Origin: Boswellia sacra
Lineage: Eukaryota; Streptophyta; Magnoliopsida; Sapindales; Burseraceae
Direction of reading: 5' to 3'
Length of the DNA: 64,000 bases
NCBI GenBank assembly: GCA_013180625.2
Contig: SNVD02015012.1
Coordinates: forward strand, 32,658 to 96,657
Position numbers and translations under genes: made by a program. How positions within the stretch are numbered: the first letter of the stretch is position 1; each line of letters opens with the position of its first letter. The notes below the pieces were generated by a model. The model made no database searches. It saw nothing but the letters and a program-made list of their open reading frames with translations, and was not told the DNA's origin. Shown here piece after piece: positions 18,204 through 53,827 of this stretch.

Positions 18204-19585
18204 TGATGAACACTTAAATATGTATGCTTAATAAGAGTTTAGTTCATCATATTGTATTAATAGTGTCATCAAATTTCTCAACATAAACATATTTGTAGTC
18301 TTTGCATCTTTCGAATTAACTTTCTCTTAATTTTGGTTTTGTTACAGGTTTGATAAAATAGGCATAACTTTCTATTTATAGATAAGAATGGTACAAATCT
18401 TAATGTTTTAGAAAGATGATTAAATTATCTACAAGATTGTATTTCACAAGCATCATCCAATTCGGGCTCTTAGCGGACCAAAAATGGGCTTGAAGTGAAC
18501 CCATCTGCAGTTTCAGCCTAGCTTGACCATGCCTCAGTATTTTGACCATATCCCTCAAGATACATATCCAAATCGTATGAATCAAGATGTTCTAGAAATC
18601 TGACAGAAATATCTATGATTTCATGAAGACATGTGATTAAAATTCTTGATAATTCAATGTCAAAATTGGTGGTCAAAGTAAGTTCACCTAATTACCCCAA
18701 TTGTCAAAGTTGGTGCATCTAATATTTGACAATTATTCCTTTGTAATTTGACAAGTGTGCCCCTGAATGTATCTATAAATAGAGATGCCTTGTGACCCAT
18801 TAGGGAATCTTGGCCTTGGCTGGATCTCTTGTTATTGTGATTTTCTCTCTTGTTTTTTAATGTTATTAATGAATTTTCTTTTTCTTGCAATTTGTTTTCT
18901 TTCTTTTATAATGTCCTTCTAATTTCTCTCTTGCTAAGGGGAAAGAGTGAAACCCTTGATATGAGAATAAAGATTTTCTAACCCTTTGATATGTGCTTAA
19001 TAATCATAATCTTGTGTTGTTTATTTTATATGATTTATATTTATTTTCTTAATCAATCTTGACACCACTTGTAAAGTGGAGGTCTTGACCCATTGTCGAC
19101 AATCCTTGGCACATCAAATGCTTGGATCCTTTCTAAATGTCGTATGGTTCTTCCTTACCGACACAAGTATAGTTAGGAACCTTGATTTATTGTAGACAAT
19201 ATGGTGATTGGCATATTGGATGCTTGAACGCATTTACAACAAGTGGTATAAATATTGGTAACGAAACAAATATAATTCATATAACTAAAATGGGCTATTT
19301 ATCCTTATTTGATATATCAAAGGTGGATCCCGTAACCTTAGCTTTCATTATTATTATGTTAATTTCTCTTGTATTTTAATTATTCTCATTTATTGTTTAT
19401 GAACTTGTTCTTTACTTATATTTATTAATATTATCTTGCCATCTCTTTGAATCATCCATATCGTATTTGTTTACTTTATAGTTTGTAGTGCTAAAACTCC
19501 TTCCTCGTGGATCGACTCCGGTCTCACCGAGTTTATTACTTTGATACTCTTATACTTGGGAGACAATCCTTTTTCGGATGTGTCA
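18204..19585 (+). repeat. 5' LTR of Athila-type element 1
   Basis: 1382 bp, partner at 27935-29317. A TATA box CTATAAATAG at 18773-18782 suggests transcription starts about 30 bp later. A minus-strand solo copy of the same family is at 62210-63738. Confidence 0.92.
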
Positions 19586-19591
19586 AGTTTT

Positions 19592-19787: not shown

Positions 19788-21120
19788 ATGGCCGACAATC
19801 AAGTGGAAAGGTACACGGATGAAGGGGACAACTGTTTCCAACAAAATGATCAAAACCAACCAAGAACCTTCAAAGATTACATAAATCCGGTAAGGACTAG
19901 TGCACCATCTTGTGTAGTTTCTCCTCCCGATTCAATCCATTTCAATTTCAAACTAAGTTTTGTTCGACTTCTACCCACCTCTCATGGCCTTGATATGGAG
20001 AACCTATATTTGCATTAAAAATCTTTGAAGAGGTGTGTAACTCTTATAGTGACCCAAATTGTAGCATAAACACCATTAGATTAAAGCTTTTTCCTTTTTC
20101 TTTAAAAGATAAAGCTAGAACATGGTTACAAAATTTGAGGTCAAATTCCATCAGTTCATGGGATGAGATGAAATAACAATTTTTGAAAAAATTTTTTCGT
20201 ACCTATGGAACAAATTCTTTTAAAAGACAAATTTCTAATTTCACTCAAAAACAAGGGGAAACCCTTTACCAATGTTGGGATATGTATAAGGAACTACTTA
20301 ACACCTGTGCTCACCATGGTTTTGAAACTTGGAGAATAGTTGCACACTTCTATGAAGGGTTAACACCTCAAGATAGGCAACTAGTGGTGTTAATGTGTAA
20401 TGGAGAATTTGGAGATAAAGACCCTGAGGAAGTAATTGACTACCTAGATTCCTTGGCAGACAAGGCTCAAAATTGGGACACTATTGGCACCTATGAGGTA
20501 CCAAGCAAGGCCCCAACCTCAATGTCGAATAGAGGCATTCACAAGCTTAGAGAAGGCCATGACCTTCAAGCCAAATATGCATCCCTAGCTAGAAAAGTTG
20601 AGGCTTTAGAAATGAAAAAGAGTGGTCAATTGAATTCTATCAAGAAATTGTCTGTCACATTTGTAATGATAATGACAATTTTACTGATAATTGCCCAACT
20701 TTGCCTGCCTTTAGGGAATGTCTCCATGAATAAGCCAACGCCTTGAACACTTTCAAAAGGCCAAATCACAATCCATATTCACGAATCTACAATCCCGGTT
20801 GGAGAAATCATCCAAATTTTAGTTGGAAAAATGACAATCATGCACAATCTTGACAAGTCCCTTTTCAAACACGACAAAATTTTCAAAATTCTCATGATCA
20901 TGCATATGCTCCCCCTCCTAGGAATGACCTTGAAGAAACATTGCATTCATTCATTATAAAGCAAGAGACTTTCAATGGTCAAACTGCTTAAACATTAGCA
21001 AATTTGTCAGACACTCTTGCAAAATTTGCATCTAAATTTAGCATCCAAGAGAAAGGGAAATTTCCTTCTCAAACACTGCAAAACCCCAAAGATTAATCTA
21101 ACTCAAATGTAGGGAGTTCA
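19788..21120 (+). pseudogene. Athila-type element 1 gag
   Basis: Starts MADNQVERYTDEGD. After a frameshift near 20000 the capsid core reads LKLFPFSLKDKARTWLQNLR (20080-20140) and QGETLYQCWDMYKELLNTC (20250-20310), the retrotransposon gag signature. A stop occurs at 20174 and the frame ends at 20746. The following Asn/Pro-rich segment to about 21120 is out of frame. Not translatable as one protein. Confidence 0.85.
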
Positions 21121-21153
21121 AGTAACCATTATTTTAACCAAGCCAAATCAGTC

Positions 21154-22430
21154 ATGACCCTTCGCAATGGTAAGGTTGTTAAAAAACACATTCCTAACCC
21201 TTGTGAGAAAGAAGAAGAATCGATCTCTAAAGGGCAGGAAAAGGTTGCCAAACCAACACCTAGCAAAGAAGAAACCAAGTCCTTATCTGTGCCTCCATTT
21301 CCTCAAGCATTAGCCATGCAAAAGAATCCAACTCACAATTTTGAAATTTTTAAAATTTTCAAACAGGTAAAGGTCAGCATTCCCTTGCTAGATGTGATCA
21401 AACAGGTACCTTCTTATGCAAATTTTTTGAAAGACTTTTGGCACTGTGAAAAGGAAATTGAATGTGAAAAAGAAGGTCTTTCTAGCCGAGCAAGTAAGTG
21501 CTATTCTTCAAAATAATAATACAATGAAATATAAGGATCCAGGTTGTCCTACAATTTCATGTGTTATTGGAGACCATAAAATTGAACAAGTTTTACTTGA
21601 TCTTGGTGCTAGTGTGAATTTGCTTCCATACTCGATTTTTCAGAAACTCAATCTAAGTGAGTTAAAACCGACTTCTGTGACTCTTTTCTTGCTGATAGAT
21701 CAATCAAAGTACCAAGAGGAGTAGTAGAAGATGTGTTAGTTCAAGTTGATAAATTTATTTATCCAGTGGATTTTATCATCTTGGACACACAATTAGTGGA
21801 AGTATGCAATTCAATTCCTATTATTTTAGGACTTCCATTTCTAGCTACCTCTAATGCTTTGATTTATTGCAGGAATGAAGTCATGAAGCTATCACTTGGG
21901 AACATGACATTGGAACTTAATGTTTTTAATATGTGCAAACAACCACATGAAAAAGAAGATGAAATTGAGAAGGCCAATATGAATGAAACTATTATGGAAG
22001 ACCATATCTAAAAAGGGAGTTCTTCTGACCCTTTGAAAACTTGTTTAGTGAATTCATTAGAATCAAGTATAGAACTAGAGCCTAATCTTTGTGATATATA
22101 TTCTTTATTAGATTGTGCATAGGTGATGGAAAAATGCTCAAAACCAAGATTCGAAGAATTGGGGCAAATGAATGAAAGCAAGGAAGAGGAAGCTCCTAAA
22201 GGACTGAAACCTTTACCTGAAGGACTGAAATATGCATATCTTGGGGAGAATCAGACATATCCGATGGTAATTTCTTCATCCTTCATAAGCAAGCAACGAG
22301 GTAAGTTAATACAAGTACTTAAAAGGCATAAAAATGCAATCGGGTGGACTTTCAAAGACATAAAAGGCATTAACCCTTTGATTTGTACACATAGAATACA
22401 TTTAGAAGAAAATGTAAAAACATCCTAACA
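21154..22430 (+). pseudogene. Athila-type element 1 protease and PR-RT linker
   Basis: Begins MTLRNGKVVKKH, the usual lead-in to Athila protease. The active site LLDLGASVNLLPYS lies at about 21590-21640. Frameshifts near 21500 and 21700 and a stop at 22009 break it. The linker at 22123-22428 reads LKPLPEGLKYAYLGENQTYP and HKNAIGWTFKDIKGI, which leads into RT. Confidence 0.85.
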
Positions 22431-22455
22431 ACCTCAAAGGAGATTAAATCCCTAT

Positions 22456-23570
22456 ATGAAAGAGGTCATTAGGGCTGAAGTTATCAAACTACTTGATGTG
22501 GGAATTATCTACCCTATTTCTGATAGTAAGTGGGTAAGCCCTACGCAAGTAGTACCTAAGAAATCTGGCATTACAGGAGTCAAAAATGAAAAGGGTAAAT
22601 TATTGCCAACTCGAGTCTCATCTAGTTGGAGGATATGCATTGATTATAGAAAATTAAATGCTGTCACCAGAAAAGACCATTTTTCCTTACCATTCCTTGA
22701 CCAAATTCTTGAAAGAATAGTAGGTCACCCCTACTACTACTTTTTTTATGGATACTCAGGCTATTATCAAATTTTCATTGCACTCGAAGACCAAGAAAAG
22801 ACCACATTTATGTGCCCCTTTGGCACTTTTGCATTTAGGAGAATGCCTTTTGGACTTTGTAATGCTCTAGCTACTTTTCAAAGATGCATGTTAAGCATGT
22901 TCAATGGCATGGTTGAGCATTGTTTAGAAGTTTTCATGGATGATTTAACTATTTTTAGAAACTCTTTTGATAATTGTCTTGAAAACTTAGAAAAAGTCCT
23001 AAAAAGGTGTGAAGAAAAAGGTCTTATTTTGAATTGGGAAAAATGTCATTATATGGTCACTTCGGGAATTGCCTTAGGTCATGTGGTGTATTCTAAGGGA
23101 ATTGAAGTGGACAAAGCAAAAGTGGAATTAATATCCCATTTGCCTCCACCAAAAACAGTCAAAGAGGTTCGTTCATTCTTAGGGCATGCTGGATTTTATA
23201 GGAGGTTCATAAGAAATTTCAGTGCTATATCTAAACCTCTTTGTAACCTCTTAATAAAAGACACTTCTTTTGAATGGATTTAAGAATGTCAAAATGCCTT
23301 TGATCAGTTAATTGGACTTTTAACAACTGCTCCAATTATGTAATCTCTTGATTGGTCCTTGCCTTTTGAATTGATGTGTAATGCAAGTGATTATGCCGTT
23401 GGTGTCGTCTTAGGACAGAGAAAAGAAGGTAAGCCTTATGTGATATACTATGCACGTAGGACTTTAAATGATGCACAAATGAATTACACAACAACTGAAA
23501 AAGAACTACTTGCAGTAGTATTTGCACTGGACAAATTCAATTGGCTCTCCAACAATTGTTTACACTGACC
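22456..23570 (+). pseudogene. Athila-type element 1 reverse transcriptase and RNase H
   Basis: RT at 22456-23283 shows SSWRICIDYRKLNAVTRKDH, TFMCPFGTFAFRRMPFGLCN and FMDDLTIF. The first catalytic block reads FFYGYSGYYQI, with Tyr where an Asp is expected, so polymerase would be dead even without the stop at 23281. RNase H (23359-23568) has FELMCNASDYAVGVVLGQR and TTEKELLAVVFALDKF, then shifts frame. Confidence 0.9.
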
Positions 23571-23634
23571 ATGCAGCTGGGAGATATTTAATGTCTAAAC
23601 AGGATGGAAAACGTAGATTGATAGGTGGATCTTA

Positions 23635-24926
23635 TTGCTCCAAGAATTCAACATCACAATAACGGATAAGAAAAGAGCCGAAAATGTCATTGCAGATCAT
23701 CTTTCAAGATTAACGACAGAGATATTAATTGAAGCTTCACCTATCAATGACTCTTTTCCTGATGATTTTTTATTCTCCGTTGCTACAATACCTTGGTTTG
23801 CTAACATTGTAAATTTTCTTGCAACAGGAAATGCCACCTCATTGGAATGCTCAAGACAAAAGGAAGTTTTTGAACGAGGTGAAAAATTTTTATTGGGATG
23901 ACCCATATATGTTCAAATATTGTCCGGACTAAATAATTAGACGATGCATACCTGACAATGAGTTAAGTAGTGTCATTAATTTTTGTCATTTTGAAGCATG
24001 TGGAGGACATTTTTCATCTAAAAAAACAACTGTTAAAATCTTGCAATGTGGATTTTATTGGCCCACCTTATTTAAGGATGCACATGCATTTTGCAAAACT
24101 TGTGAAAATTGTCAAAAATTGGGATCCATTTCAAAACGAAACATGATGCCTTTGAATCCCATTCTTGTTGTTGAAATCTTTAACTGTTGAGGTATTGATT
24201 TTATGAGACCTTTTCCACCATCATTTGGTTTTATGTACATTCTTGTTGCAGTAGACTATGTTTCAAAATGGGTCGAGGCAATGTTATGTCGAAACAATGA
24301 TCACAAAACAGTTATCAAATTCTTGAAAGAGAATATCTTGTACAGATTTGGAATTCCTCGAGCCATTATTAGTGATAGGGGTACACGTTTTTGCAATAAA
24401 CCTTAGAAAAAAAGGTTAACCCAAATCGTAAAGATTGGTCTTTAAGACTTAATGATGCACAACATCATTGGGAATGTCTCCTTCTAGATTAGTTTATGGA
24501 AAACCTTGTCACTTGCCTGTGGAAATTGAACATAAAGCTTATTGGGCCATTAAAACATTTAACACAAATTTGAATGATTCTTGCAAGTTACGTAAACTCC
24601 AACTGAGTGAACTTGAAGAAATTAGGAATGAGGCTTATGAAAATTCTAAAATCTACAAAGAAAAAATGAAGGTTTTTCATGACAAATTCATTGTTAAAAA
24701 ATCTTTTGAACCTTCACAAAAAGTTCTTTTGTATGATTCAAGATTGCACTTGTTTCCTAGTAGACTTCGGTCTCGTTGGGCTGGGCCTTTCATTGTTAAA
24801 AATGTTTCCCCTCATGGAGCAATTGAAATTGACAACCTAAAGAATGGTAATGTGTTTAAAGTTAATGGACAACGGTTAAAACCATTCTTTGAAAATTTGA
24901 CCAAAATGAAGAGTCCATTGCTTTAA
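23635..24926 (+). pseudogene. Athila-type element 1 integrase
   Basis: Zinc-binding and core pieces are at 23910-24400 (VDYVSKWVEAM, IPRAIISDRGTRF). The C-terminal part at 24468-24926 reads [20 protein letters not shown] and [14 protein letters not shown]. Between 24406 and 24430 the segment that should carry the catalytic Glu is missing, an internal deletion of roughly 60 codons. Several stops besides. Confidence 0.88.
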
Positions 24927-25067: not shown

Positions 25068-25615
25068 ATGGATACATTCTCTCAAATCTGCACAAACATT
25101 TTCCCTCTCTTCCTCAAAATGATTTGCTTAGAATTTACAAAGCTCGCGTAGAAAGACTAAGGATGTGGATGTGTAAGGGTATTCCTGCTGATATAAGATG
25201 GTTAATTGAAGTCAAGGTTCGATTTTCTTGTGAGTTTTCAAATAATCTTGTTTCTCACATGCTAGGTTTAGTAAAAAGCTCTTACGCCAAAAAGCGAAGA
25301 GCGAAAAGGTTACATGTTTGTCACAAATGTGCAAGATGGACTTGTAACCAGTGTTGCCGCTCCTTGGGATATTTGTCTAATAATCGAGAGGATAAACTAC
25401 AATTCATCAAGAATGGACTGAGTAGGGAGTCTTTGGATGATATTTGATTGATTCTTGAGATGCATTCTTGTGGACTTGTGCAGCGTGAAATTTTGAAATT
25501 TTTGACATAATTCTGAGATGAGTAGGAACGCTATAGTCTTGGGAATCTAACTCAAAACGACCCTGTTTGTCATTTTATAAGAAAACTGGATGGGAAGCAT
25601 ATCCTTAACTTATAA
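25068..25615 (+). pseudogene. Cys-rich basic (viral NABP-like) cargo ORF, decayed copy
   Basis: Broken homologue of the intact ORF at 47181. It starts MDTFSQICTNIFP, shifts frame near 25115, then reads IPADIRWLIEVKVRF, SSYAKKRRAKRLHVCHKCAR and WTCNQCCRSLGY, NREDKLQFIKNGLSRES. Stops follow at 25445 and later, ending at TAA 25613-25615. The basic run followed by CxxC and a second Cys cluster resembles the nucleic-acid-binding protein of carlaviruses (PF01623 as recalled). This older copy keeps the first Cys of the CxxC pair, which the younger copy has changed to Tyr. Confidence 0.75.
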
Positions 25616-25938
25616 AAGGTGTTTAAGCCGTTTCTGGACGTAAAACGAGAGGAAGATGTGAGCCCCAGTCACAACTACTTGTACATATGCATGTGTGCCA
25701 TTATTTTTGAATTTTAATGCCTTATATCTGTCATTTTTGAATTTGTATATTTTGTTTGACTTGTGCATTTATGGTGTCTTATTTCATCATCTTTTGTTTT
25801 GAATTTCTAGGCATTATTGTCAAACTTTTTCAACAAACAGCCGAGCTACCTATATAGATATCATCATTAGAATACCTTTTTGCACTCCATAAATATCACA
25901 TCTCTTGTTTCCTTCTTCACACATAGTTAGAAAGTTGC

Positions 25939-26590
25939 ATAGACATAAAGGGAACATCAAAACGTCAAATCCAAAAGATATGTGTATTCTGTGGATCTCA
26001 ACCTGAAAAAAGTGAAGAGTTTGTAGCAGTAGCAAATTATCTTTGTAGGCTATTAGCCGAAAGAAAGATTCATGTGGTTTATGGGGGAGGTAGCCTCGGG
26101 TTAATGGGTTATGTGTCAACAGCTGCACTTGTATTGTCAAGTTTTAGGTATTATTCCTAAAGCTTTGGCAGTAGAAAGCATCGTTGGAAAAACAGTTGGG
26201 AAGGAGTTACAGGTCTCCTTTATGCTTGACCGCATGACATATATGCTTATCAATTCGGATGCCTTTATTTCTTTACCAGGTGGCTTTGGTATTCTCGAAG
26301 GAATTTTTCAAATTGCCTCTTGGGCCCAACTAAATCTCCATAAAAAACCCATAGGTTTGTTGAATGTTAAAAATTTCTTTGATCGTTTGATAAGTTTTGT
26401 TGATGCAGCTATAGAATAAAATTTTATCCCTCATTCGGTGCGACAGATTCTTGTTTCTGCCACTTCTGCTAGTGAGTTACTTGACAAATTACAAGCAGTT
26501 GAGTATGAACCTGACCCAGCTATAACTCAAATTAATTGGTCAGGGGGACAAAACAAAAAGTATAAATTGGATTTGAATCTCTGTTTGTAA
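25939..26590 (+). pseudogene. LOG: LOG-like cytokinin phosphoribohydrolase, decayed copy in element 1
   Basis: Reads KICVFCGSQPEKSEEF, VVYGGGSLGLMG, a frameshift near 26120-26140, then VLGIIPKALAVESIVGKTVG and ISLPGGFGILEGIFQIASWA. A stop at about 26416 precedes NFIPHSVRQILVSATSASEL. The family motif PGGxGTxxE has become PGGFGILEG, losing both the Thr and the catalytic Glu. The likely start ATG appears as ATA at 25939. Intronless, whereas plant LOG genes have several introns, so it derives from spliced RNA or a non-plant source. It sits inside the LTRs, so it is element cargo. Confidence 0.88.
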
Positions 26591-27934: not shown

Positions 27935-29317
27935 TGATGAACACTTAAATATGTATGCTTAATAAGAGTTTAGTTCATCATATTGCATTAATAGTGTCAT
28001 TAAATTCCTCAACTTAAACGTATTTGTAGTCTTTGCATCTTTGGAATTAACTTTCTTTTAATTTTGGTTTTGTTATAGGTTCGATAAAATAGGTATAACT
28101 TTGTATTTATAGATCAGAATGGTGTAAATATTAATGTTTTGAAAAGCTGATTAAATTATCTACAAGATTGTATTTCACAAGCATCATCAAATTCGGGCTC
28201 TTAGTAGATCAAAAATGGGCTTGAAATGAACCTATCTGCAGTTTAGGCCCAGCCTGACCATGCCTCAGTATTTTGACCATATCCCTCAAGATGCATATCC
28301 AAATCATATGAATCAATATGTTCTAGAAAGCTGAGAGAAATATCTACGACTTTTGTGAAGACATATGATTAAAATTCTCAATAATTCAATGTCAAAATTG
28401 GTGGTCAAAGTCAGTTCACCTAATTACCCTAATTGTCAAAGTTGGTGCATCTAATATTTGACAATTATTTCTCTGTAATTTGACAAGTTTGCCCCTGAAT
28501 GTATCTATAAATAGAGGTGCCTTGTGACCCATTAGGACATCTTAGTCTTGGCTGGGATCTTTTGTTATTGTGATTTTATCTCTTGTGTTTTAATGTTATT
28601 AATGAATTTTCTTTTTCTTGCAATTTGTTTTCTTTCTTTTATAATGTCCTTCTAATTTCTCTCTTGCTAAGGTGAAAAGGTGAAACCCTTGATATGAAAA
28701 TAAGAATTTTCTAACCCTTTGATATGTGCTTAATAATCATAATCTTGTGTTGTTTATTTTATATGATTTATATTTTTTTTCTTAATCAATCTTGACACCA
28801 CTCGTAAAGTGGAGGTCTTGATCTATTGTCGACAATCCTTGGCACATCAAATGTTTGGATCCTTTCTAGATGTCGTATGATTCTTCCTTACCGACACAAG
28901 TCTAGTTAGGAACCTTGATTTACTGTAGACATATGGTGATTGGTACATTGGATGCTTGAACCCATTTACAACAAGTGGTATAAATATTGGTAATGAAACA
29001 AATATAATTCATATAACTAAAATGGGCTACTTATCCTTATTTGATATATCAAAGGTGGATTCCCTAACCTTAGCTTTCATTATTATTGTGTTAATTTCTC
29101 TTGTATTTTAATTATTCTCATTTATTGTTTATGAACTTGTTCTTTACTTATATTTGTTGATATTATCTTGCCATCTCTTTGAATCATCCATATTATATTT
29201 GCTTACTTTATAGTTTGTAGCGCTAAAACTCCTTTCTCGTGGATCGACTCTGGTCTTATCGGGTTTATTACTTCGACACTCCTATACTTGGGAGACAATC
29301 CTTTTTCGGATGTGTCA
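27935..29317 (+). repeat. 3' LTR of Athila-type element 1
   Basis: 1383 bp, partner of 18204-19585, same TG..CA ends. It carries the same TATA box near 28505. Confidence 0.92.
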
Positions 29318-32910: not shown

Positions 32911-33042
32911 TAGTTATTTCTTTAAGTTGTGAAACCATGGCTTCTTATCCACTTCGATCTTTATTACATAAGGCTCCATGTAACAAAGACCCCATGCTTG
33001 TGATATCACTGTTGGCCTCACTAATAATTCTTGCGTGCTTAC

Positions 33043-33500
33043 CTATACTGATTGCAACAAAGCTAATACGTCAGCTATCTGATTCTCACTTTTAGGAAGA
33101 TGGGTGAAGGTGCACTGCTTGAACCTCCCAGTCAACCTTCTAACATGTTTAAGGTAAGGCTTTTGCTTCCTTTCTCGTGAATCCCAATCTTCATTGGCTT
33201 GAGCGATGACTAGCTTGGAATCTCTCCACACCTCTATTTCATCAATACCATGGCAATCACAATTTTTAAACCAAAGGTGCAGGCTTCATAATCGACCATA
33301 CTGTTGTTGACTCTGAACTTCAACTGTTTGATGAATGGGATGACTTCTTTAATTGGTGACACTAGAATAACTCCTATTCCAGAACCGTTACGATTAACAG
33401 CTCCATCAAAGAACATTCTCCATCCCACTATCAAGATTACCCTTAGATGTTCATTTGGGAATTCCAACTCCCATGGTTCATTATCGTCAGCCGGGTTCAT
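33043..33500 (-). pseudogene. Ogre/Tat second (archaeal-type) RNase H
   Basis: Minus strand. WRMFFDGAVNRNGSGIGVIL (about 33380-33440) and NSMVDYEACTFGLKI start the domain; DSKLVIAQANEDWDS and LPKSENQIADVLA finish it (33043-33231). An extra RNase H downstream of the RT-linked one is a hallmark of the Tat clade. A frameshift near 33235 splits it. Confidence 0.88.
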
Positions 33501-41495: not shown

Positions 41496-43200
41496 TGTTA
41501 TAGGAATCTAATGCCAAATCTAAACACTTCAAGACTGCGGAATAGCCTCTAGGATCAAGATCTTGTGAGTACAGGCTTTAAAATTTTGATTTGCTTTCTC
41601 ACCATTTCAATTCCTAGGTATGTTTGAAAATTGCGTAAACAAGATGTGTGGGCATCTCAAAATCAGTGGACTATGTCTGAAGAGCAGTTATCGATGAACA
41701 ACGCCTCATGAACAGTACACACGTGAATAGTATTTAGTGAACAACATCGTGTGAATACTACTTCATTAATGGTAACTATATGAATAGTAATTGCGTGAAG
41801 AGTATCAGTGTATAGTGGTGGCTTGTTCCTTGTTCACTAGAAAACTATCACAACACTGACCTAATTCATCATTTTATGTCTCTGTTAATCGTTGTCCAAT
41901 TTAGACTATGAACCTAATCCTATTAGGTTTAGTCTAACTAATTTTTTGTGCTCTTAGAACTTAATCTCATTAAGTTTTTAATTGGGCTTTTAACACTTGA
42001 TTAGGTCTAACTCAAATTTCGTGTAGGCTTTTAATTAATCACATTAATTATAAGCCCATTAATCTAATTAATTGAATTGGCCCAAATACTCTATTAATAA
42101 TGAGCCAATTTACTAGTCAAATATATTTAATTTAATACCTGGGCTTTATTTACTAATAAACCCAATTAAATTAAATAATTAATTTCTCAAATGCAATCCT
42201 TATTTAGACAATTTATATCCGCTATCTACGGGACCTTGATGGACACTTTTAATTACAAGCTCCAATAAGTTTGTCCTAGTACCCTATTATCTCGTAACTA
42301 CAATGGGTTCCACCTATTAACTTTGGTTTATTCCACTAGATGTTCAAAGTTGCACTCCTGAATTAAATACTATTTACAGAAAGCTTAATAATTTAATATG
42401 ATTAAATTATTTCTTTAAGCCATATCCATTGAGCATCAGGTTTACATAACTACCGTTCATGGAATATCAATAATTGGAGTTAGGTATGAGTTACCGTGTC
42501 ACGCTTTCAATTACATCTTGAGCCCTTGATACCAGTTTTATACCATTTAAATGAGTTGAGATTTATTAAAATAAGTCTTAGTTTAATCAACAGCTTTCAT
42601 TAAATACTTAGCCAAGATTTTCTCAAATAAAACCTTGTAAAACCACCAAGGTGGTATTCTGTAATCCTTTTGGAGTCATGAATTCCATCACTATGGCATA
42701 GTTTCTATTAGTATACAGATCCTACAATCTCAACTAGCCAAGGTATTCATTTACTCTTTTAGATCTCACTTTTTATTCTAGTCAACCATAGCCTGTATAC
42801 TAGAGGTACACTACCCACTCAAGATTAAGGTAGGAATGCCTTTAGTGCTCAGAAGTAGAAATTCATATTCAGTTATGGTATTTCTACAAAATGGTTAATT
42901 TTTATGAGGTCCATGTCAATGCATTAATAATGCACAAGTGTCTTTGTCCTAAAGTCTCCACTTCAAATGGTTAGAGACTTACCATTTTCCTATTGAAGAC
43001 AAATGACACAACAACCTTGTCCAAGTAAAGTGCCCAGCTTTAATAGGTCATGAATTAGTTTTTTGAGCTATGACAAAGTTCTATGTCTCAGATATATCTC
43101 TATATATATAGAAAATTTGTAAATATACAAGCTCTAGAACCTTTAGTCATTGATACTGACACACTTAGGTAATTTATAAATAATAACTTTTATTCATTTA

Positions 43201-44609
43201 TGATAGGTGTTTATTTATGTATCATTTTCATATCAATTCATCTATGTTTCTTTGCTATAATCCTTGGTATTTTTATGCTTTTGTGTGGTTTTGATGTTTG
43301 TAGGAGTTTTGGAGGAACTTACACCAAAGTGAAGTAAAACCCTTCATTTTCACCTCTGCTAGTCAACCATCTTCTCGGATTTAATTGTATTGATATACAA
43401 TGAACCGGATAACATGTTATATACCGTTGGAAAGCTCTCGAAGTCTATTTTCTAGAGAAATTTATGGTTCATAAATCCATTCAGTGTACCGAAAGTTATA
43501 ATCAAAACAGTGTAAGAAGTGTAGAAATGTAATTCCCAAATAACTATAGCATGTATAATACGGGACACTATAGCAGGTTACTGTAGCAAAGTATATAAAC
43601 ACATTTTAGGGTTTAATTTGAAGAACTTGAAGAGGGGAGAACGTGTTAGAGGCTGCATCTTTGGATTTCTCTCATCTCTTGGAGTTCTTGAAGGAGATTG
43701 AAGGCTTGGAAAGAGGAAGAACTACAAATCCTAAGAGATTTCATCAGATTTGCTAAATTTATCATTTCCCTTTCATCTTTTGAAATTTTTATGTATTGTA
43801 TTGTATTTAAGACGTTTTTGAACATGTGTAACTAAATCTGAATTGGTTGAGGGTGATTTCAAAGCCCTTGATATGGTTTTTGTGAGTTGATTGTGCAAGA
43901 AGTTGTTATCCAATTCTCTAATTGAAGTTGCTTGTATTTTCCCATATCTAATGCTTATAATTGCTTGCTGATTGTATTTGGAATGGCCAACTGAATATAA
44001 TCTGGTTGTTGTCTATTGCTAGACTAGAAATCTTGATCCGTAATTGTCTTGAATTTCTAATCCTTAGTAGCAAAATTGTGATCAGAGATTGCAATTGGAG
44101 AATACAACCTAAGTTAAATAATCCGAGCTTGTGTGTTTATTGCTTAGATCAACCTATCTTTCTTATCGTAATGCATCCATTGAATTAAATTTAGAGAGCT
44201 TGTTCTAGGTTGTTTAATGGATAGAGATTAAATAAAGAGCCTGTTTTATTTAACAACAAAGTAAGGAAAGATTGGGATAACAGAGCTTGTTGTTATCTAC
44301 GGTTGATAATTTCAATGGTGTAATTGGATGACAATTCTATGATTAATTAGCAAACCCATATCTTGTGGCAAAGAAGGATCCCTTAACCAGGTTTCTTTCA
44401 TTGATTTTTCACTCCATTTTACTTTGTGTTGTGTTATTGTGCATTTACATTAATATTTCATTTAGTTAATCCATCAACAAAACCCCCCATTTATTCTGTT
44501 GTTGCTTTTGAATAACAAATTCAATTAGAATCAATCCTCGTGGGAACGATATCTACTTATCACTTTATTACTTGTGCGACTAGTATACTTGCTAGTTTCG
44601 AACGCATCA
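43201..44609 (+). repeat. 5' LTR of Athila-type element 2
   Basis: 1409 bp. TATA box TATATAA at 43592-43598. Matches 50643-51943 with only scattered differences plus one ~14-bp indel (near 43540). Confidence 0.92.
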
Positions 44610-44614
44610 AGTTT

Positions 44615-44632
44615 TGGCGCCGTTGCCGGGGA
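44615..44632 (+). other. Primer-binding site, tRNA-Asp
   Basis: TGGCGCCGTTGCCGGGGA, the standard Athila PBS, five bases after the LTR. Confidence 0.9.
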
Positions 44633-44719
44633 TTGATTTTCTAATCGATTTGTTATTTTGTTTTCATTGTTGATTCGTATTTTTTTTTTTTCTTTTCTGA
44701 TTGTTTGTGTTTAGACGAC

Positions 44720-46669
44720 ATGGCAGTAAACTTCCAACAATTCAGTAGTCGATTTGAGCCACAACTACATTGGAGAGTAAATGAGGTAAGCACTCCGAAC
44801 ATTGAACAACAACTTTCTGAGCTAACCTCTCTTGTGGAAAACATGGCTGTAGGACATATGCAGAAACCTTATGCATGTGGGGTATATTCTACCATGGAGC
44901 ATTCAATGGACATGTATCCAACTTTACAAGAAGAAGATATGGAACAAGTCAATGCCATGGGTGGATTTTCAGGACAATCAAGGCAATGGTATGATCCCTT
45001 CTCTAATACTTATAATGCCGGATGGATAGATCACTCCAATTTTAGTTATGGGAATCATCAACCAACCACCCCAAATGGCATACCAAATTGGCCACAAGGT
45101 TTTAATCAACCTAGAGTGCAGCAACTATTTCAAATGCAACCACCACCAATGCCACAACCAGCTCCAGAAAACTCAGGTATGTCACTCCAGGATATTGTTA
45201 ATGCACTTGCCACTAACACAATGCAATTCCAGCAGGAAACTGGGGCAAGTATCCAAAACCTGGCAAATCAAATGGGACAATTGGCTACTAGCATGAGCAA
45301 ATTCGAGGGCCAAGACTCAGAAAAATTATCTTCTCAAACGGTGATCAATCCAAGCGAGACTGCTAGTGCGATAACTTTGCGAAATGGAGAGCAATTAGAT
45401 GTCTTACTGGGAAAATCACAAACTGATGAAGGAAATGACACCCCATTCACCATGAACAAAACATTGACTTCTCAGGTAAATCCTATAACTCCCATTCCTT
45501 TATATGTTACTCCTCCACCTTTTCCTAGCAAATTGGCAAAATTGAAGAAGGAGGAACAAGAACAAGAAATCCTGAAAACTTCTCACAAAATCGAGGTAAA
45601 TATACCACTTTTAGATTCTATCGAGCAAGTACCTCATTATACAAAACGTCTCAAGGAGTTATGCACCAACAAGAGAAATTTAAAAGGTAATGAGAAAGTA
45701 AGTATGGGGGAAAATGTTTCAACTGTACCACAAAGAAAAATTCCTCCGAAATGCAATGATCCAGGTACGGTCACCATTCCATGCACCATTGGTAAAACCA
45801 AGTTTGAAAGAGCTATGTTAGATTTAGGAGCATCTATTAATGTCATGCCATTTATTTATGCTTCTTTAAATCTTGGACCTTTTGCGAAAACTGGTATTAC
45901 CATTCAGTTTGCTGATCATTTTAATGCATATCCCAAAAGAGTTGTGGAAGATGTGCTTGTGCAGGTGAATCAATTGGTTTTCCCAGCAGACTTCTATGTC
46001 CTTAAAATAGAGGATGAGACATCTCCTAATCCAACTCCGATTCTTTTAGGGAGACCATTCTCGAAAACTGTTAGAACCAAGATTGATGTTCATGATGGCA
46101 CTCTCATCATAGAGTTTGATGGCAAGGTGATATGTTTCAATATTTTTGAAGCAATGAGGTACTCTAGTGACTTACATTCTGTTTTTGCAGTTAACGTTGT
46201 TGATTTTTTGTCACAACAATATTTTGAGTTAACTCGCAAGAATGGATTGGATGTAGCTATTAGTGAGCATATGGGGACAGAAAATTTCAATGAGTTAGGA
46301 ATTTTGATACAAGTGTCCAAAGAAATGGAGGAAGCTGTGACAAGCTTAGATGAGACCATAGCAATAACCACAAATAGGTATGATGTTTCGTACATTCAAT
46401 TTACTTTATCTAATGAGAAACTTCTTCCTTCTGTGACGAAAGCCAATACCTTGGAGCTCAAGTCACTGCCAGATCATTTGAATCATGGATTCTTGGGTGA
46501 GAATGATACTTTGCCAGTTACAATGGAAATGGGCCTTGCACGAATACAAGAAGAGAAACTCGTCCGAATACTTATAGATCACAAAATAGCTATTGGGTGG
46601 ACATTTGACATCCAAGGCCCATATGCATGGACCGGCCGTATGGTTGGAAAAAGGATCCAAGCCCACTAG
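44720..46669 (+). CDS. Gag C-terminal half fused to aspartic protease (Athila-type element 2)
   Basis: 649 aa open frame from the ATG at 44720 (MAVNFQQFSSRFEP); the frame opens earlier, but only at a TTG. The capsid core of gag is missing. What remains is a Gln/Pro/Asn-rich stretch (residues about 85-210, with RQWYDPFSNTYNAGWIDHSN, normal in Athila gag C-termini), then ITLRNGEQ, a Lys/Glu-rich linker, and an aspartic protease with LDLGASINVMPF near residue 380. The end (LKSLPDHLNHGFLGENDTLP, HKIAIGWTF) is the PR-RT linker, cut off where RT should begin. The frame is intact, so protein could be made, but polymerase activity is absent. Confidence 0.8.
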   Translation: MAVNFQQFSSRFEPQLHWRVNEVSTPNIEQQLSELTSLVENMAVGHMQKPYACGVYSTMEHSMDMYPTLQEEDMEQVNAMGGFSGQSRQWYDPFSNTYNAGWIDHSNFSYGNHQPTTPNGIPNWPQGFNQPRVQQLFQMQPPPMPQPAPENSGMSLQDIVNALATNTMQFQQETGASIQNLANQMGQLATSMSKFEGQDSEKLSSQTVINPSETASAITLRNGEQLDVLLGKSQTDEGNDTPFTMNKTLTSQVNPITPIPLYVTPPPFPSKLAKLKKEEQEQEILKTSHKIEVNIPLLDSIEQVPHYTKRLKELCTNKRNLKGNEKVSMGENVSTVPQRKIPPKCNDPGTVTIPCTIGKTKFERAMLDLGASINVMPFIYASLNLGPFAKTGITIQFADHFNAYPKRVVEDVLVQVNQLVFPADFYVLKIEDETSPNPTPILLGRPFSKTVRTKIDVHDGTLIIEFDGKVICFNIFEAMRYSSDLHSVFAVNVVDFLSQQYFELTRKNGLDVAISEHMGTENFNELGILIQVSKEMEEAVTSLDETIAITTNRYDVSYIQFTLSNEKLLPSVTKANTLELKSLPDHLNHGFLGENDTLPVTMEMGLARIQEEKLVRILIDHKIAIGWTFDIQGPYAWTGRMVGKRIQAH

Positions 46670-47180
46670 AGAAGCACAACAGAGATTGGATCCTCCCATG
46701 ATGGAACCAACGTTGGGCTGAGGACGTTAAACCAAGCGCTTATTGGGAGGCAACCCAATGTTTTTGAAAAATAAATAAAAGAAAAGAAAAGAAAAATAAA
46801 TAAGGTAATAATGATCGATTTTTGTATCTCGAGGAGATTCCTTTCGTAGGCCATCAAATTGATCAGGTTTTATCTCTCTTTGCCATCTATCTTATTTGTT
46901 TATATATATATATATATATATATATTTTACTTGTTTTTTACTTTTGTTTGCTTTCGTGTTGTTATCTCTTTTATGTGTCTTTAGTTTCTTTTCTGCTCTT
47001 TTCTTTTCGTTTCTTTTGTTTAATTTGATTATTTCGTACTTTGTACTCATTTGTGCAACAGCTTGAGGAAACACCTAAACAAGAATTGAAGCCATTGCTT
47101 GAAGGTTTGAAGCGTGCATATCTTGGAGAAGAATAGACTCAAACGAATTACTGGTAATCTCTTTCCTTTTCTCCTCTTCA
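46670..47180 (+). other. Deletion junction and spacer in element 2
   Basis: After the ORF, 'gaggacgttaaaccaagcgc' and 'ttattgggaggcaacccaat' (46720-46762) match the conserved block that normally follows integrase in Athila elements, so pol was deleted at about 46700. A (TA)n run lies at 46903-46925. A second PR-RT linker relic (ELKPLLEGLKRAYLGEE) occurs at 47080-47136, ending in TAG. The patchwork suggests recombination between related elements. Confidence 0.7.
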
Positions 47181-47735
47181 ATGGATGCCGATATCTTTTT
47201 GTCGAACCTTCGTAAATATTTCCCTTCACTTCCTCAAAATGCTGTGTTTAAAATTTATAAAGTACGGATGACTAGACTTTGGGCATTGATGCTCTTAAAT
47301 GTGCCTGCTGATATCCGATGGCTTATCGAAGCCAAGGTGAGATTGTCCAGTGAACCGAACATTAATCTCGCAAAATACATGCCTGCTCTAGGAAAGAGCT
47401 ACTACGCCAAGAGGCGAAGAGCAAAAAGGTTACAAGTATATTATAAATGTGCTAGATGGAATTGTAACCAGACTTGTCGTTCATTAGGTTTTGTGTCTAG
47501 GAACAGAGAAGATAAACTTTCATTTATTAAGAATGGTTTGAGTAATGAGTCGCTGGATAATGTTTTGTTAACTCTCGAGTCTCTTTCTTGTGGACTTGTT
47601 CAGCGTGAATTGCTTAATCTATGGACACAATTTCGTGATGAATTGCAGTGTTATAGTCTAGGGAATCTGACTAAAAACGACCCTGTTTACCAGTTTATAA
47701 GAAAACTGGATGGAAAGCAAATCCCCGACTCATAG
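47181..47735 (+). CDS. Cys-rich basic protein, resembles carla-type viral nucleic-acid-binding silencing suppressors
   Basis: 184 aa, intact, ATG at 47181. Residues about 52-60 read PADIRWLIE. Residues about 70-105 hold GKSYYAKRRRAKRL, a strongly basic likely nuclear-localising stretch, then a Cys cluster YKCARWNCNQTC, and further on NREDKLSFIKNG. The layout (short helical N-terminus, S-Y-A-basic run, Cys cluster, then a FI-x-x-G element) recalls the cysteine-rich nucleic-acid-binding proteins of carlaviruses, which bind RNA and suppress silencing (PF01623 as recalled). One cluster Cys is Tyr here but Cys in the older copy at 25068. It lies where Athila elements carry an env-like ORF, upstream of LOG. 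Homology is judged by eye; origin could be viral or an unknown plant zinc-finger protein. Confidence 0.7.
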   Translation: MDADIFLSNLRKYFPSLPQNAVFKIYKVRMTRLWALMLLNVPADIRWLIEAKVRLSSEPNINLAKYMPALGKSYYAKRRRAKRLQVYYKCARWNCNQTCRSLGFVSRNREDKLSFIKNGLSNESLDNVLLTLESLSCGLVQRELLNLWTQFRDELQCYSLGNLTKNDPVYQFIRKLDGKQIPDS

Positions 47736-47961
47736 AAAGCGTTTCAGCCGTTACTGGACGTAAAACCAGAGGAAGATGTGAGCCACAATCACAACTACTT
47801 GTATATTTGAATGGGTGTTGTTATTGTCAATTTTTTTTTCTTGTTTCGTTTGATCTGATTATCAATGTTGTTTTTGTGTTGTTGTTGTTTGTTGATTTTT
47901 GTTTGTTTTAATTTCAAGTTTTCTTTTTGACAAACCATATGACTACCCCATGATATAAGCA
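47736..47961 (+). other. Conserved segment after the Cys-rich ORF stop
   Basis: After TAG the same frame stays open for 24 codons (KAFQPLLDVKPEEDVSHNHN, then YLYI). The old element has its stop (TAA) at the same codon and an alike continuation. Most base differences change amino acids, so protein-level selection is not shown. The remainder is T-rich and non-coding. Confidence 0.5.
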
Positions 47962-48215
47962 CACGTGGAAGACAAGTGTGGAGGTTTTGTCACCCTCCGC
48001 CGAAAGTATATCTTTACTTTTCATGCTTCACGTGGGAGACAAGTGTGGCGGTTTTTTTCAAACCCCACCGAAAGTTTATCTCCATTTTTCATGCTCACGT
48101 GGGCGACAAGTGTGGAGGTTTTGTCAAACCCCACCGAAAGCATATCTATTTTTTCAAATCTTAGGGCGATAAATCTGCATCGAGCAACTCCCACCGAAAT
48201 TATGTCCCCATGTGT
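47962..48215 (+). repeat. 67-bp tandem repeats with G-boxes upstream of LOG
   Basis: Three units start CACGTGG at 47962, 48029 and 48096 (exact 67-bp period) and continue 'gacaagtgtggaggtttt' and 'ccccaccgaaagt'. A fourth, degraded unit runs from 48163. CACGTG is the plant G-box, bound by bZIP/bHLH factors. The array ends about 140-190 bp before the LOG start codon. It is absent from the old element, so it was gained in this lineage. Open frames across it are by-products of the 67-bp periodicity. Confidence 0.8.
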
Positions 48216-48351
48216 CAAATTTGAGAGTTTTACGTGTGTATATATCCATGCTGCATATTTTGAAATGTCATTTTATAACCTATCTTGCACTTGAATCGCA
48301 TAATACCTAACGTACATCATTGTCTTGCACAAGTTTAGAGCACTTTTAGAA

Positions 48352-49002
48352 ATGGAGAAAACACCAATTCGGCGATTCCAAAATATATGCGTATTTTATG
48401 GATCGCAATTTGGTAAAGATGGAGAGTTTACAACAGCAGCTCTTGATCTTGGTAGGACATTAGCTACGATGGGTATTCATTTGATTTACGGAGGGGGTAG
48501 TCTTGGGTTAATGGGGTGTGTGTCGACAGCTGCATCCTTAGGAGGAAGCAAAGTTCTCGGCATTATCCCTAAACCATTAGCTGTACGAGATATCGTAGGC
48601 AACACCATAGGGGAAGAGTTACAGGTTTCTAGTATGCATGAGCGTATTGCACATATGGTCATTAAATTTGATGCATTTATAGCTTTGCCCGGTGGTTATG
48701 GTACATTAGATGAGATATTTCAAATCACCTCTTGGGCACAGCTAAACATCCATCGGAAACCCATTGGTTTGTTCAATGTCAATAATTTTTTTGATGGTTT
48801 GTTGTCTTTTCTTGATCAAGCAGTAGAAAAAAACTTCATCTCACAGTCGCCGAGGCAAATCCTGGTTACAGCTTCAACTGCAGGGGAGTTAATTGACAAA
48901 TTACAAGCATTCGTCTTTTCGCCTGATCCAACAATAGCTCGGATAGATTGGTTTGGAGAAGGCAATAAGAGGCGTAAACTGGATTTTACGCTCCATCTGT
49001 AA
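48352..49002 (+). CDS. LOG: LOG: cytokinin riboside 5'-monophosphate phosphoribohydrolase, retroelement-borne
   Basis: 216 aa, intact, intronless. The ATG at 48352 (MEKTPIRRFQNICVF) is chosen over an upstream in-frame TTG because it gives the normal LOG N-terminus and length. Nucleotide-fold motifs ICVFYGSQ and YGGGSLGLMG (residues about 11-60) are followed by MHERIAHM with its conserved Arg (near residue 100) and the catalytic loop LPGGYGTLDEIF (PGGxGTxxE intact). LOG enzymes release free active cytokinin bases from nucleotide precursors in the cytosol. Plant LOG genes have several introns; a continuous ORF between LTRs implies cDNA capture or a non-plant origin. The diverged partner at 25939 shows the cargo is older than this insertion. 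Activity is predicted, not proven. Confidence 0.92.
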   Translation: MEKTPIRRFQNICVFYGSQFGKDGEFTTAALDLGRTLATMGIHLIYGGGSLGLMGCVSTAASLGGSKVLGIIPKPLAVRDIVGNTIGEELQVSSMHERIAHMVIKFDAFIALPGGYGTLDEIFQITSWAQLNIHRKPIGLFNVNNFFDGLLSFLDQAVEKNFISQSPRQILVTASTAGELIDKLQAFVFSPDPTIARIDWFGEGNKRRKLDFTLHL

Positions 49003-50642
49003 TCTCTATCTGTTGGGTTGCTTGATTTTCGTTTGCTTTCTCTTTATTGTGTTTATTTGAGTTTTTTTTTATGTCATTTCTTTTGAGTTTTTCAGGTTGT
49101 TTCTTTCACCCCAGGTAATATTTTCTAATCTTGGCTTTTAGAGTGGTGGCTTAAAAAGTTCAAGTTCTCTTGAAACGCATTCTGGAGTTCTTTAATCCAT
49201 AATGGCTGAATAAAGAGGCTAACTTCTAAACTTTTTAGACCCATTCTAACTTAATTGTTTTTGTTTGCTAACTTGTTGGACTTTGTTATTTTATGAGTAA
49301 GTTTAGTTTTGTAATTTAGAGTTGTTATGTGTTTTTGTCTTTATCAGTTTCGATTCAAAAAAAAAATTTGTGGAAAAACCTGAGAATGGCAGAATATGGG
49401 GTTCCTTAACTCTTGAAACGCATTCTCTCTAAATATATCTGTAGTTTGTTTATTTTATGTTGTTTGAAGTGTCTTGTTTCTTGTTTTATTTTCATAATAA
49501 AGGTATATAGGCTGGAAACCTTAAGTCTGCGGGCTACTGGTCCTAAGGATTGTTGAAATATACAATCTTGACTCAGGTGTAATAACGCCACGTACCTCTT
49601 TTCTTGCATTTTGTGGGTCGATGATAAGATAATGATTGAATTAAGAATAACTCTTGGAAAATGATAAATGATGCATGGATCTGTGTGCTTGAAATGTTTA
49701 TTGGTTTTCGCTTTGCTTTTGATTCCTTGCACAACATTGAGCACTGAGCTATTATTCACTGAGTTATTTGTTCACTTAGAGAAAGTTTATGTAATTTAAA
49801 TGTTTCTTCAGAATTCAATGAATTCTAGAACCTGTTTGATGGTCACTCGAGGCGAAATCCTAGGCTGTGCAATATTGGAGAAATGATTTAGGCCATCTTT
49901 GGACCGTTTGAGCCTAAATAGCCAACCTTGATTGAAATTGATCCCTAGTTACCCCTTTGAGCCTTTATAAGCTTTTTTTTTTTCTGTTAACTCACTAAAA
50001 AGATTTCCTAACCCCAAATGAATTTTTTTTCAAACAGTTTGTCCCTTATCTATGAGCATGTAGATCATTCACGACTAAATTTTGAGTTATGTTCTGGTTT
50101 TGGGAAGTTAGAGGAGGTTGGGATGTGTCATGAGCAATGCAAGTGAGTTCTATTATGTTTGAAAAAAAAAAAAAAAAGAAAAAAAAGCCAATCTATACTT
50201 ATCGTCCACGTACTTACACATTGAGGACAATGTGTTGTTTAAGTGTGGGGGAGGGGAAGTGTAATAAAAAAAAAGAGAAATAAAAGAAAAAAAAAGAAAA
50301 AAAAAGAACAAAAGAAGAAGAATAAGAGATCTATACCCTTAAGTTTTCTTAAAAAGAATGAAACAACAAAGTGTGGGGGTGTAGTTTTCTTTTGTTTTCT
50401 GCAAAAAAAAAAAAAAAGATTAAGTGTTCTAAATAAGTTTGGGGGAGTAACCTGGTGAATTGAAATGAAGTTGTGTTATAGGGTTAAGCTCTACATAATC
50501 TTGAATGATTTATGTGTTTGTGGATGATTTGAGCCAAATTATTATCCTTTATCATACCTTCACCCAAGCCAAACGTTACAAGCTTAATAAAGTCCTACTT
50601 GATCCTTGGTGTTGTGCATGTCTACATTAGTGGAGAGTTTTG
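49003..50642 (+). other. 3' UTR of element 2 with repeated polypurine-like tracts
   Basis: No gene. 'tcttgaaacgcattct' occurs twice (49165, 49411), as in element 1 (26845). CACATTGAGGACAATGTG (50217) precedes gtgtgggggaggggaagtg (50241-50259), and further G-rich tracts lie at 50371-50380 (gtgtgggggt) and 50439-50447 (tttggggga). Long A runs occur at 50161-50186 and 50266-50310. The normal PPT/LTR junction is lost with the start of the 3' LTR. Confidence 0.65.
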
Positions 50643-51943
50643 GAGTTTTGGAGGAACTTACACCAAAGTGAAGTAAAACCCTTCATTTTCACCTCTGCTA
50701 GTCAACCATCTTCTCGGATTTAATTGTATTGATATACAATGAACCGGATAACATGTTATATACCGTTGGAAAGCTCTCGAAGTCTATTTTCTAGAGAAAT
50801 TTATGGTTCATAAATCCATTCAGTGTACCGAAAGTTATAACAAAACAGTGTAAGAAGTGTAGAACAAATGACTGTAGCATATATAATACGGGACACTGTA
50901 GCAGGTTACTGTAGCAGAGTATATAAACACATTTTAGGGTTTTATTTGAAGAACTTGAAGAGGGGGAGAACGTGTTAGAGGCTGCATCTTTGGATTTCTC
51001 TCATCTCTTAGAGTTCTTGAAGGAGATTGAAGGCTTGGAAAGAGGAAGAACTACAAATCCTAAGAGATTTCATCAGATTTGCTAAGTTTATCATTTCCCT
51101 TTCCTCTTCTGGAATTTTTATGTATTGTATTGTATTTAAGATGTTTTTGAACATGTATAACTGAATCTGAATTGGTTGAGGGTGATTTCAAAGCCCTTGA
51201 TATGGTTTTTGTGAGTTGATTGTGCAAGAAGTTGTTATCCAATTCTCTAATTGAAGTTGCTTGTATTCTCCCATATTTAATGCTTATGATTGCTTGCTGA
51301 TTGTATTTGAATGGCCAACTGAATATAATCTGGTTGTTGTCTATCTATAGAGCTAGACTAGAAATCTTGATCCGTAATTGTCTTGAATTTCTAATCCTTA
51401 GTAGCAAAATTGTGATCAGAGATTGCAATTGGAGAATACAACCTAAGTTAAATAATCCGAGCTTGTGTGTTTATTGCTTAGATCAACCTATCTTTCTTAT
51501 CGTAATGCATCCATTGAATTAAATTTAGAGAGCTTGTTCTAGGTTGTTTAATGGATAGAGATTAAATAAAGAGCCTGTTTTATTTAACAACAAAGTAAGG
51601 AAAGATTGGGATAACAGAGCTTGTTGTTATCTACGGTTGATAATTTCAATGGTGTAATTGGATGACAATTCTATGATTAATTAGCAAACCCATATCTTGT
51701 GGCAGAGAAGGATCCCTTAATCAGGTTTCTTTCATTGATTTTTCACTCCATTTTACTTTGTGTTATGTTATTGTGCATTTACATTAATATTTCATTTAGT
51801 TAATCCATCAACAAAACCGCCCATTTATTCTGTCGTTGCTTTTGAATAACAAATTCAATTAGAATCAATCCTCGTGGGAACGATATCTACTTATCACTTT
51901 ATTACTTGTGCGACTAGTATACTTGCTAGTTTCGAACGCATCA
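50643..51943 (+). repeat. 3' LTR of Athila-type element 2 (5'-truncated)
   Basis: 1301 bp matching 43304-44609. The first ~103 bp present in the 5' LTR are absent, best explained by a deletion after insertion. Confidence 0.9.
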
Positions 51944-52008
51944 ATTTATAACAATAATGTTTACATATTATAGAAAAACTTCCTTACTTTTAGGGCATAT
52001 CTCTAACA

Positions 52009-53624: not shown

Positions 53625-53827
53625 AAAAGTGCATAGTAATACATCAACTTCATTCATTACATTAAATTTCTCGTACAAGCACCAATACTTCAATCAATAA
53701 CATTCAACAAACAAACATAACCACTTTTTGGTTATGTTTGTTTGTTGAATGTTATTGATTGAAGTATTGGTGCTTGTACGAGAAATTTAATGTAATGAAT
53801 GAAGTTGATGTATTATTATGCACTTTT
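53625..53827. repeat. Near-perfect foldback, 99-bp arms, 5-nt loop
   Basis: Left arm 53625-53723 and right arm 53729-53827 are inverted copies with one visible mismatch (gcatagtaat against gcataataat), separated by ctttt. Transcription would give a long hairpin RNA suited to Dicer processing. It lies in the left subterminal region of the CACTA element. Confidence 0.93.

Follow-up and report, generated by a model that had tools for sequence, protein, structure and literature searches.

A Viral_NABP-like gene and a LOG-like phosphoribohydrolase gene form a recurrent cargo pair of Ty3/gypsy retrotransposons in Boswellia sacra

Two Athila-like elements similar to LOGL4 are said to have been described by Steinbauerova in 2011. 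A LOG/YgdH domain has been found in Gypsy elements of Citrus sinensis, C. clementina, and Populus trichocarpa (PMC9289625), a source that itself cites Steinbauerova 2011 for LOG-bearing Gypsy elements. Furthermore, Gypsy elements of Phalaenopsis contain an AlkB demethylase as an extra enzyme ORF, proposed to be a possible helper of the element; the enzyme is a different one, and no paired virus-type binding protein is described in the accessible text (PMC9289625). According to the same paper, extra genes in plant LTR elements are mostly devoid of known domains. That LOG occurs inside Gypsy elements is already known (PMC9289625), and the first-pass annotation of the locus presented here, which was aware of no retrotransposon combining a LOG with a Cys-rich protein, has to be corrected in this respect. 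It still stands for the pairing with an NABP, as no report of NABP together with LOG in a retrotransposon was found in the open-licence literature; to the same extent, the age of the pairing, its selection pattern, and the pocket change described below are new. For the Citrus and Populus elements, the accessible text of PMC9289625 describes neither an NABP and its pairing with LOG nor selection, a pocket change, or pol-less carriers. The terms "nabp" and "carlavirus" do not occur in the main text of that paper, nor do LONELY GUY, cytokinin, and Athila in a review of gene capture (PMC13317346), LOG and cytokinin in PMC11728184, or NABP in PMC3136472.

Like the Citrus and Populus elements, an 8.7-kb LTR element of Boswellia sacra (43201-51943 of the window, i.e., of the whole 64-kb stretch of DNA that was analyzed) holds a LOG-family ORF inside a Ty3/gypsy structure. 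This ORF follows a second one encoding a Viral_NABP-like protein (Table 1); both are intact and lie where the first-pass annotation had placed them. The perfect ATTTA target-site duplication (TSD) and the residence between LTRs noted there are likewise correct, with the exception that the 3′ LTR is incomplete, its start and the polypurine tract (PPT) having been deleted. Of the structural features expected of a Ty3/gypsy element, LTRs bounded by TG and CA, a 5-b TSD, and a tRNA-Asp primer-binding site (PBS) are present, and the PPT has been lost in this copy. The tRNA gene 3′ end matching the PBS occurs at 24 places in the genome, and at the one place examined ARAGORN called a tRNA-Asp(gtc); for the match, the CCA end is presumably added to the gene 3′ end.

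Table 1. Coordinates of the two NABP- and LOG-carrying elements in the window. Rows without the label "element B" belong to the 8.7-kb element.
Feature	Positions	Strand	Remark
Element B, 5′ LTR	18204..19585	+	93.4% to its 3′ LTR
Element B, gag-PR, broken	20177..22368	+	
Element B, RT (RVT_1) and RNase H	22429..23895	+	
Element B, integrase	24041..24926	+	C-terminal part by eye
Element B, NABP, carries stops	25076..25603	+	66% to NABP 47181-47735
Element B, LOG, one frame shift and one stop	25954..26587	+	60-63% to LOG 48352-49002
Element B, 3′ LTR	27935..29317	+	
TSD ATTTA, left	43196..43200	.	direct reading
5′ LTR (TG...CA), 1.4 kb	43201..44609	+	
Primer-binding site TGGCGCCGTTGCCGGGGAT	44615..44633	+	complementary to tRNA-Asp 3′ end
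gag C-terminal part and aspartic-protease-like ORF (LDLGASINVMP)	44720..46669	+	likeness to L061 and motif by eye; ORF 44705-46669
NABP ORF, 184 aa, Viral_NABP-like	47181..47735	+	basic stretch and Cys cluster
67-b tandem repeat with CACGTG boxes, NABP-LOG spacer	47962..48147	+	
LOG-like phosphoribohydrolase ORF, 216 aa from ATG, intronless	48352..49002	+	
Deletion junction	50634..50650	.	comparison with L065 and other copies
3′ LTR remnant, start missing	50642..51943	+	
TSD ATTTA, right	51944..51948	.	perfect duplicate of left

The element is a crippled copy without pol, without the gag capsid part, and with a damaged 3′ end. No match to pol was found inside it, and its gag-PR ORF yielded no Pfam family above cut-off and is devoid of the Retrotrans_gag capsid part that is still present in the longer copy L061. 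A deletion of approximately 450 b took away the PPT together with ~100 b of U3 at the start of the 3′ LTR, and 50447-50641 now abuts R-U5. The equivalent of this segment is internal in all 7 longer stretches compared (L061-L067; other copies of ~10 kb), and an LTR resembling the 5′ LTR start follows it in L061, L062, L065, L066, and L067, in L065 with a polypurine tract ahead of that LTR (by eye); for L063 and L064, none was among the LTR matches listed behind the segment. Even the intact frames of the window copy conceal missense changes at sites that are the same in the majority of the other copies; 1 of the 4 finger Cys of NABP is among the residues changed. The two LTRs differ by a K2P distance of 0.018 over 1295 b, which at plant substitution rates of 0.7-1.5e-8 dates the insertion to about 0.6-1.3 My ago.

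Searching the genome (639 Mb, 7431 contigs) revealed at least 150 places each for NABP (13,887 first-look candidates; 147 of the best 150 without stops) and LOG (14,686 first-look candidates). The loci examined further were the best-scoring of these lists, and copy integrity is therefore biased upwards. Among them, and with the window copy included in both sets, LOG was located ~0.6 kb downstream of NABP in 30/30 NABP-anchored loci, and NABP upstream of LOG in 28/30 LOG-anchored loci. One miss (L033) is due to a contig edge inside NABP, and the other (L040) is a true miss, in which the likeness to the element begins only past NABP. Immediately upstream of NABP, gag-PR was found in 21 and integrase in 9 of the 30 best-scoring NABP-anchored loci; thus, the cassette is carried by both pol-bearing and pol-less elements. 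That the ORF pair arose by misassembly or was inserted together by chance at one locus is practically excluded by the presence of both genes in 58/60 best-scoring loci, by a second element in the window (element B), and by the perfect TSD, so that the initial suggestion of two ORFs travelling together has been borne out. Assembly artefact, chance pairing, and an accident in one copy were all ruled out by recurrence.

The window copy, with neither pol nor capsid part, derives from an abundant Ty3/gypsy family, which is probably Athila-like. Within this family, contig C6280 (L067 and L013) shows the order RH-INT-NABP-LOG, and INT-NABP-LOG was seen as well. In C6280, ~0.13 kb separate the RH and INT matches, leaving no room there for an extra RNase H; the Athila clade, a non-chromovirus OTA lineage, has no additional RNase H (PMC6317226). 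A degenerate further NABP copy was observed upstream of the pol-NABP-LOG copy of C6280 (L067:1833-2330).

Element B (18204-29317), which the first-pass annotation did not mention, has its own LTRs and is older than and diverged from the 8.7-kb element. It contains the full order gag-PR-RT-RH-INT-NABP-LOG, so that the Ty3/gypsy pol order RT-RH-INT, which is absent from the 8.7-kb copy and partly present (RH-INT) in C6280, is complete here. Its LTRs have a K2P distance of 0.068, its flanking duplication is imperfect (CTATA/CTTTA), and its frames are broken in gag, NABP, and LOG. The same pair of genes in the same order is therefore found in two divergent families of one genome. A block of ~145 b that covers the NABP end and extends into the spacer (47702-47810 / 25571-25715) shows 84% identity between L033 and element B, and the Citrus protein P0101 seems to read through a stretch like it; this conserved block is perhaps a splice or translation signal. 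Moreover, the 67-b repeat of the spacer was found in 60/60 loci, with 1-4 CACGTG motifs (G-box) per spacer in 30/30, and was not seen in the spacer of element B (by eye); an internal promoter and an RNA element are two conceivable roles for it.

Beyond Boswellia, the named relatives among the matches listed belong to Populus, Xanthoceras, Rhamnella, Citrus, Diplodiscus, and Acer for NABP, and to Populus, Xanthoceras, Diplodiscus, Reevesia, Melia, Pterospermum, and Rehmannia for LOG. Of the two genera with known LOG-bearing Gypsy elements, Populus is in both lists and Citrus in the NABP list with pieces of the LOG domain. Single annotated proteins with pieces of both domains come from Rhamnella (P0054), Citrus (P0101 and P0119), and Diplodiscus (P0118). 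The contigs of the NABP relative P0001 and the LOG relative P0125 are 8723 b long each, which suggests that they are perhaps one contig.

Profile searches returned the Viral_NABP and LOG families above cut-off for the respective ORFs. The proposed carla-type, Cys-rich identity of the first protein is upheld by PF05515 Viral_NABP (38.1 bits, cut-off 23) and fails for PF01623 Carla_C4 (18.1 bits, cut-off 20.9) in the window copy. Among its relatives, P0001 and P0016 match both PF05515 (33.8 and 28.7) and PF01623 (28.5 and 26.0), while P0049 fails for PF01623 (16.5) and has no PF05515 match among those listed. In common with the flexivirus CRP/NABP proteins (carlavirus p12 type), the element protein has a basic stretch (KRRRAKR) beside a cluster of four Cys, followed by a conserved segment; it differs from them in being encoded by a retrotransposon, in its length of 184 aa, and in a profile match confined to residues 34-123. 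No virus-named protein was present among the best 120 of 605 NABP matches listed, a minority of which are named, and the 51 pattern-matching stretches of a viral contig collection included no NABP relative. Therefore, the viral link of NABP rests on Pfam profiles. An AlphaFold2 model (33-row alignment; pLDDT 62.7, pTM 0.29) was too weak to test this link. Two carlavirus-type CRPs have been described as RNA-silencing suppressors, with that of chrysanthemum virus B additionally reported to be a transcription factor causing hyperplasia (PMC12172455), so that at least two roles for NABP have a precedent. By analogy with these viral relatives, NABP may be a nuclear, RNA/DNA-binding silencing suppressor and/or transcription regulator.

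The second protein is a LOG, as originally annotated (PF03641, 127.8 bits, cut-off 27; best PDB match AtLOG3 2a33, E 2.7e-61). It shares with the plant LOGs AtLOG3 and AtLOG8 (1ydh) the family, the phosphate loop motif PGGxGTxxE (here PGGYGTLDE, together with MHER), and the catalytic Arg and Glu, which are kept in 111/120 and 114/120 of its closest LOG relatives (best 120 of 7647 matches from 8000 candidates scored, taken by sequence likeness alone; all LOG counts out of 120 refer to this set). Unlike these plant LOGs, it has replaced Lys100 and Glu125. The proposed prenyl pocket comprises Met96, His97, Lys100, Glu125, and Trp129, of which Glu125 and Trp129 come from the partner subunit, and its residues are identical in CgLOG, AtLOG3, OsLOG, and CpLOG (PMC4979012). 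With Met, His, and Trp retained, the window LOG lacks the full pocket set of a cytokinin-specific LOG. Among the best 120 relatives, Lys100 is kept in 12, Glu125 in 11, and His97 in 56, and the Lys100/Glu125 pair is K/E in 11, K/Q in 1, hydrophobic without Glu in 106, and other without Glu in 2; within the Boswellia genome, 55/59 LOG copies read MHERI.

Cytokinin release by the element LOG cannot be assumed, because Lys100 and Glu125 are replaced in 106 of the best 120 of 7647 relatives. The first-pass annotation had built on the known release of active cytokinin by LOG enzymes; the catalytic residues and the loop agree with it and the pocket does not, so that canonical cytokinin release is now somewhat doubtful. 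It had further proposed that the pair, with an ordinary cytokinin-activating LOG, could drive the host cell into a meristem-like state that favors germline transmission. The retained PGGxGTxxE motif and both catalytic residues, AtLOG3 as the best PDB match, and the hyperplasia caused by a carlavirus CRP, which would push in the same direction (PMC12172455), speak for this proposal. Nonetheless, we regard it as rather unlikely in view of the rarity of Lys100 and Glu125, the MHERI motif of the genomic copies, and the near abolition of CgLOG activity by alanine at AMP-binding residues, including Lys100 and excepting S19A (PMC4979012). With the catalytic Arg and Glu kept, the enzyme would still cleave a nucleoside 5′-monophosphate, and, since its side-chain pocket is changed, the substrate may be either a cytokinin nucleotide of an unusual kind or some other purine nucleotide.

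A phylogenetic tree of 66 LOG rows was calculated; P0121, P0122, P0128, P0154, all rows shorter than 195 or longer than 245 aa, and every other non-Lys row had been excluded. K/E rows group with the cellular LOGs, and the others, including the K/Q row, lie beyond one branch (100/98; trait columns in). With the two trait columns masked, 54 non-Lys rows and P0172 (Lys/Gln) are split off with an SH-aLRT of 99, and Lys requires 2 changes. This single K/Q row suggests that Glu125 was lost before Lys100. LOG-type motifs with Lys, as in the host enzyme, were located at 14 sites across the genome, and in one of these regions (L068) the host LOG gene lies in three separated pieces; the intronless ORF of the element therefore looks like a captured spliced copy. 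Furthermore, P0121, which is of the K/E type, has two LOG parts separated by a gag-like peptide (by eye), which suggests that capture preceded the pocket change. The element LOG appears to be a hormone enzyme with a pocket altered after capture.

Selection was assessed by pairwise in-frame codon comparison (codon bootstrap ranges in brackets), with NABP taken from LOG-anchored loci and LOG from NABP-anchored loci. Both cargo genes are under purifying selection, with a dN/dS of 0.20 (0.14-0.30; 27 LOG-anchored copies) for NABP and 0.25 (0.18-0.34; 29 NABP-anchored copies) for LOG, compared with 0.18 (0.10-0.29; 8 pol-bearing copies) for the integrase core and 0.36 (0.21-0.66) for the C-terminal part of integrase. 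Across 20 pol-less copies, LOG had 0.20 (0.14-0.28) versus 0.59 (0.48-0.77) for gag-PR, and 13 hand-picked copies with the closest gag again gave 0.20 versus 0.59. In 9 pol-bearing copies LOG was less constrained (0.45, 0.31-0.69), the opposite of a simple expectation, and the value for the C-terminal part of integrase likewise fits poorly with a simple reading. Column-based values were 0.20 for NABP, 0.21 for LOG (0.16 pol-less, 0.43 pol-bearing), 0.24 for integrase, and 0.63 for gag-PR. Shifted forward frames ranged from 0.96 to 1.58 for the full NABP and LOG sets, from 0.92 to 2.01 for LOG subsets, and from 0.93 to 1.07 for integrase; reverse-strand frames ranged from 0.26 to 1.75, the frame sharing third positions being low (0.26-0.27), as expected. 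The shifted frames of gag-PR (0.55 and 0.74) are about its in-frame value, i.e., gag-PR shows no codon-level constraint; since they are not near 1 and the alignment is the least clean, the contrast with gag-PR is not as clear-cut as the result for the cargo genes. A dN/dS of 0.03 for NABP on pol-less NABP-anchored loci was set aside as biased.

In our reading, both cargo genes are under real constraint, to a degree similar to integrase, and the leftover gag is relaxed. As neutral decay presumably sets in once a copy has been inserted, the values are upper bounds for the selected lineages. The chief competing cause of this pattern is exchange between element types, as recombination between pol-bearing and pol-less elements could spread constrained cargo without function in pol-less copies. 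That the two genes are hitch-hiking, transduced sequences without a role for the element would be in line with the known capture of genes by LTR elements (PMC7264820) and with the stops or gaps present in a good share of copies. A dN/dS of 0.20-0.25 against control frames near or above 1, together with the same pair in the same order in a second family at 66% and 60-63% protein identity, makes such passenger cargo very unlikely.

Our preferred explanation, to which we assign a probability of roughly 0.6, is a selected accessory cassette that conditions the host for expression and copying of the element. Fuller family members carry pol and then the NABP-LOG cassette ahead of the 3′ LTR. The flexivirus-type, Cys-rich NABP would enter the nucleus, bind RNA/DNA, and suppress silencing and/or regulate transcription; the LOG-derived phosphoribohydrolase would hydrolyze a nucleotide monophosphate of altered base specificity, and together they would render the host cell permissive. 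Pol-less relatives would be moved in trans by proteins of autonomous kin. We are highly confident of the anatomy of the cassette and the selection on it, whereas the host-conditioning role of NABP and LOG is somewhat favored, and an effect on germline transmission is possible.

Alternatively, the cassette might serve replication directly and not condition the host at all, with NABP as a nucleocapsid-like RNA chaperone or packaging factor and LOG in nucleotide salvage or clean-up inside the particle. The basic stretch and Cys cluster of NABP and the altered LOG pocket would suit this, and the constraint on LOG where gag-PR is relaxed (pol-less copies) might reflect an effect on the RNA of the element itself; given the position of NABP outside gag and its profile match to flexivirus-type proteins, we deem it unlikely. 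More speculative still is an ancient two-protein counter-defence cassette, in which NABP would block small-RNA or transcriptional control and a retooled LOG, having lost Glu125 and then Lys100 stepwise, would hydrolyze a non-cytokinin nucleotide, e.g., a nucleotide serving as an alarm signal in plant immunity. Elements without pol would then persist as dedicated cassette carriers, with the polymerase supplied by autonomous kin. A pair of genes with testable biochemistry that recurs in two diverged families, and that selection maintains even in copies with a relaxed gag and without pol, provides a concrete entry to the dealings of plant retrotransposons with host silencing, hormones, or immunity.

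Elsewhere in the window, matches to RNase H and integrase (30-32%) on the minus strand at 32111-34072 belong to a further Gypsy-type element. Moreover, an inverted repeat at 53625-53827, with 99-nt arms that are 99% complementary and a 5-nt loop, looks like a hairpin or MITE.
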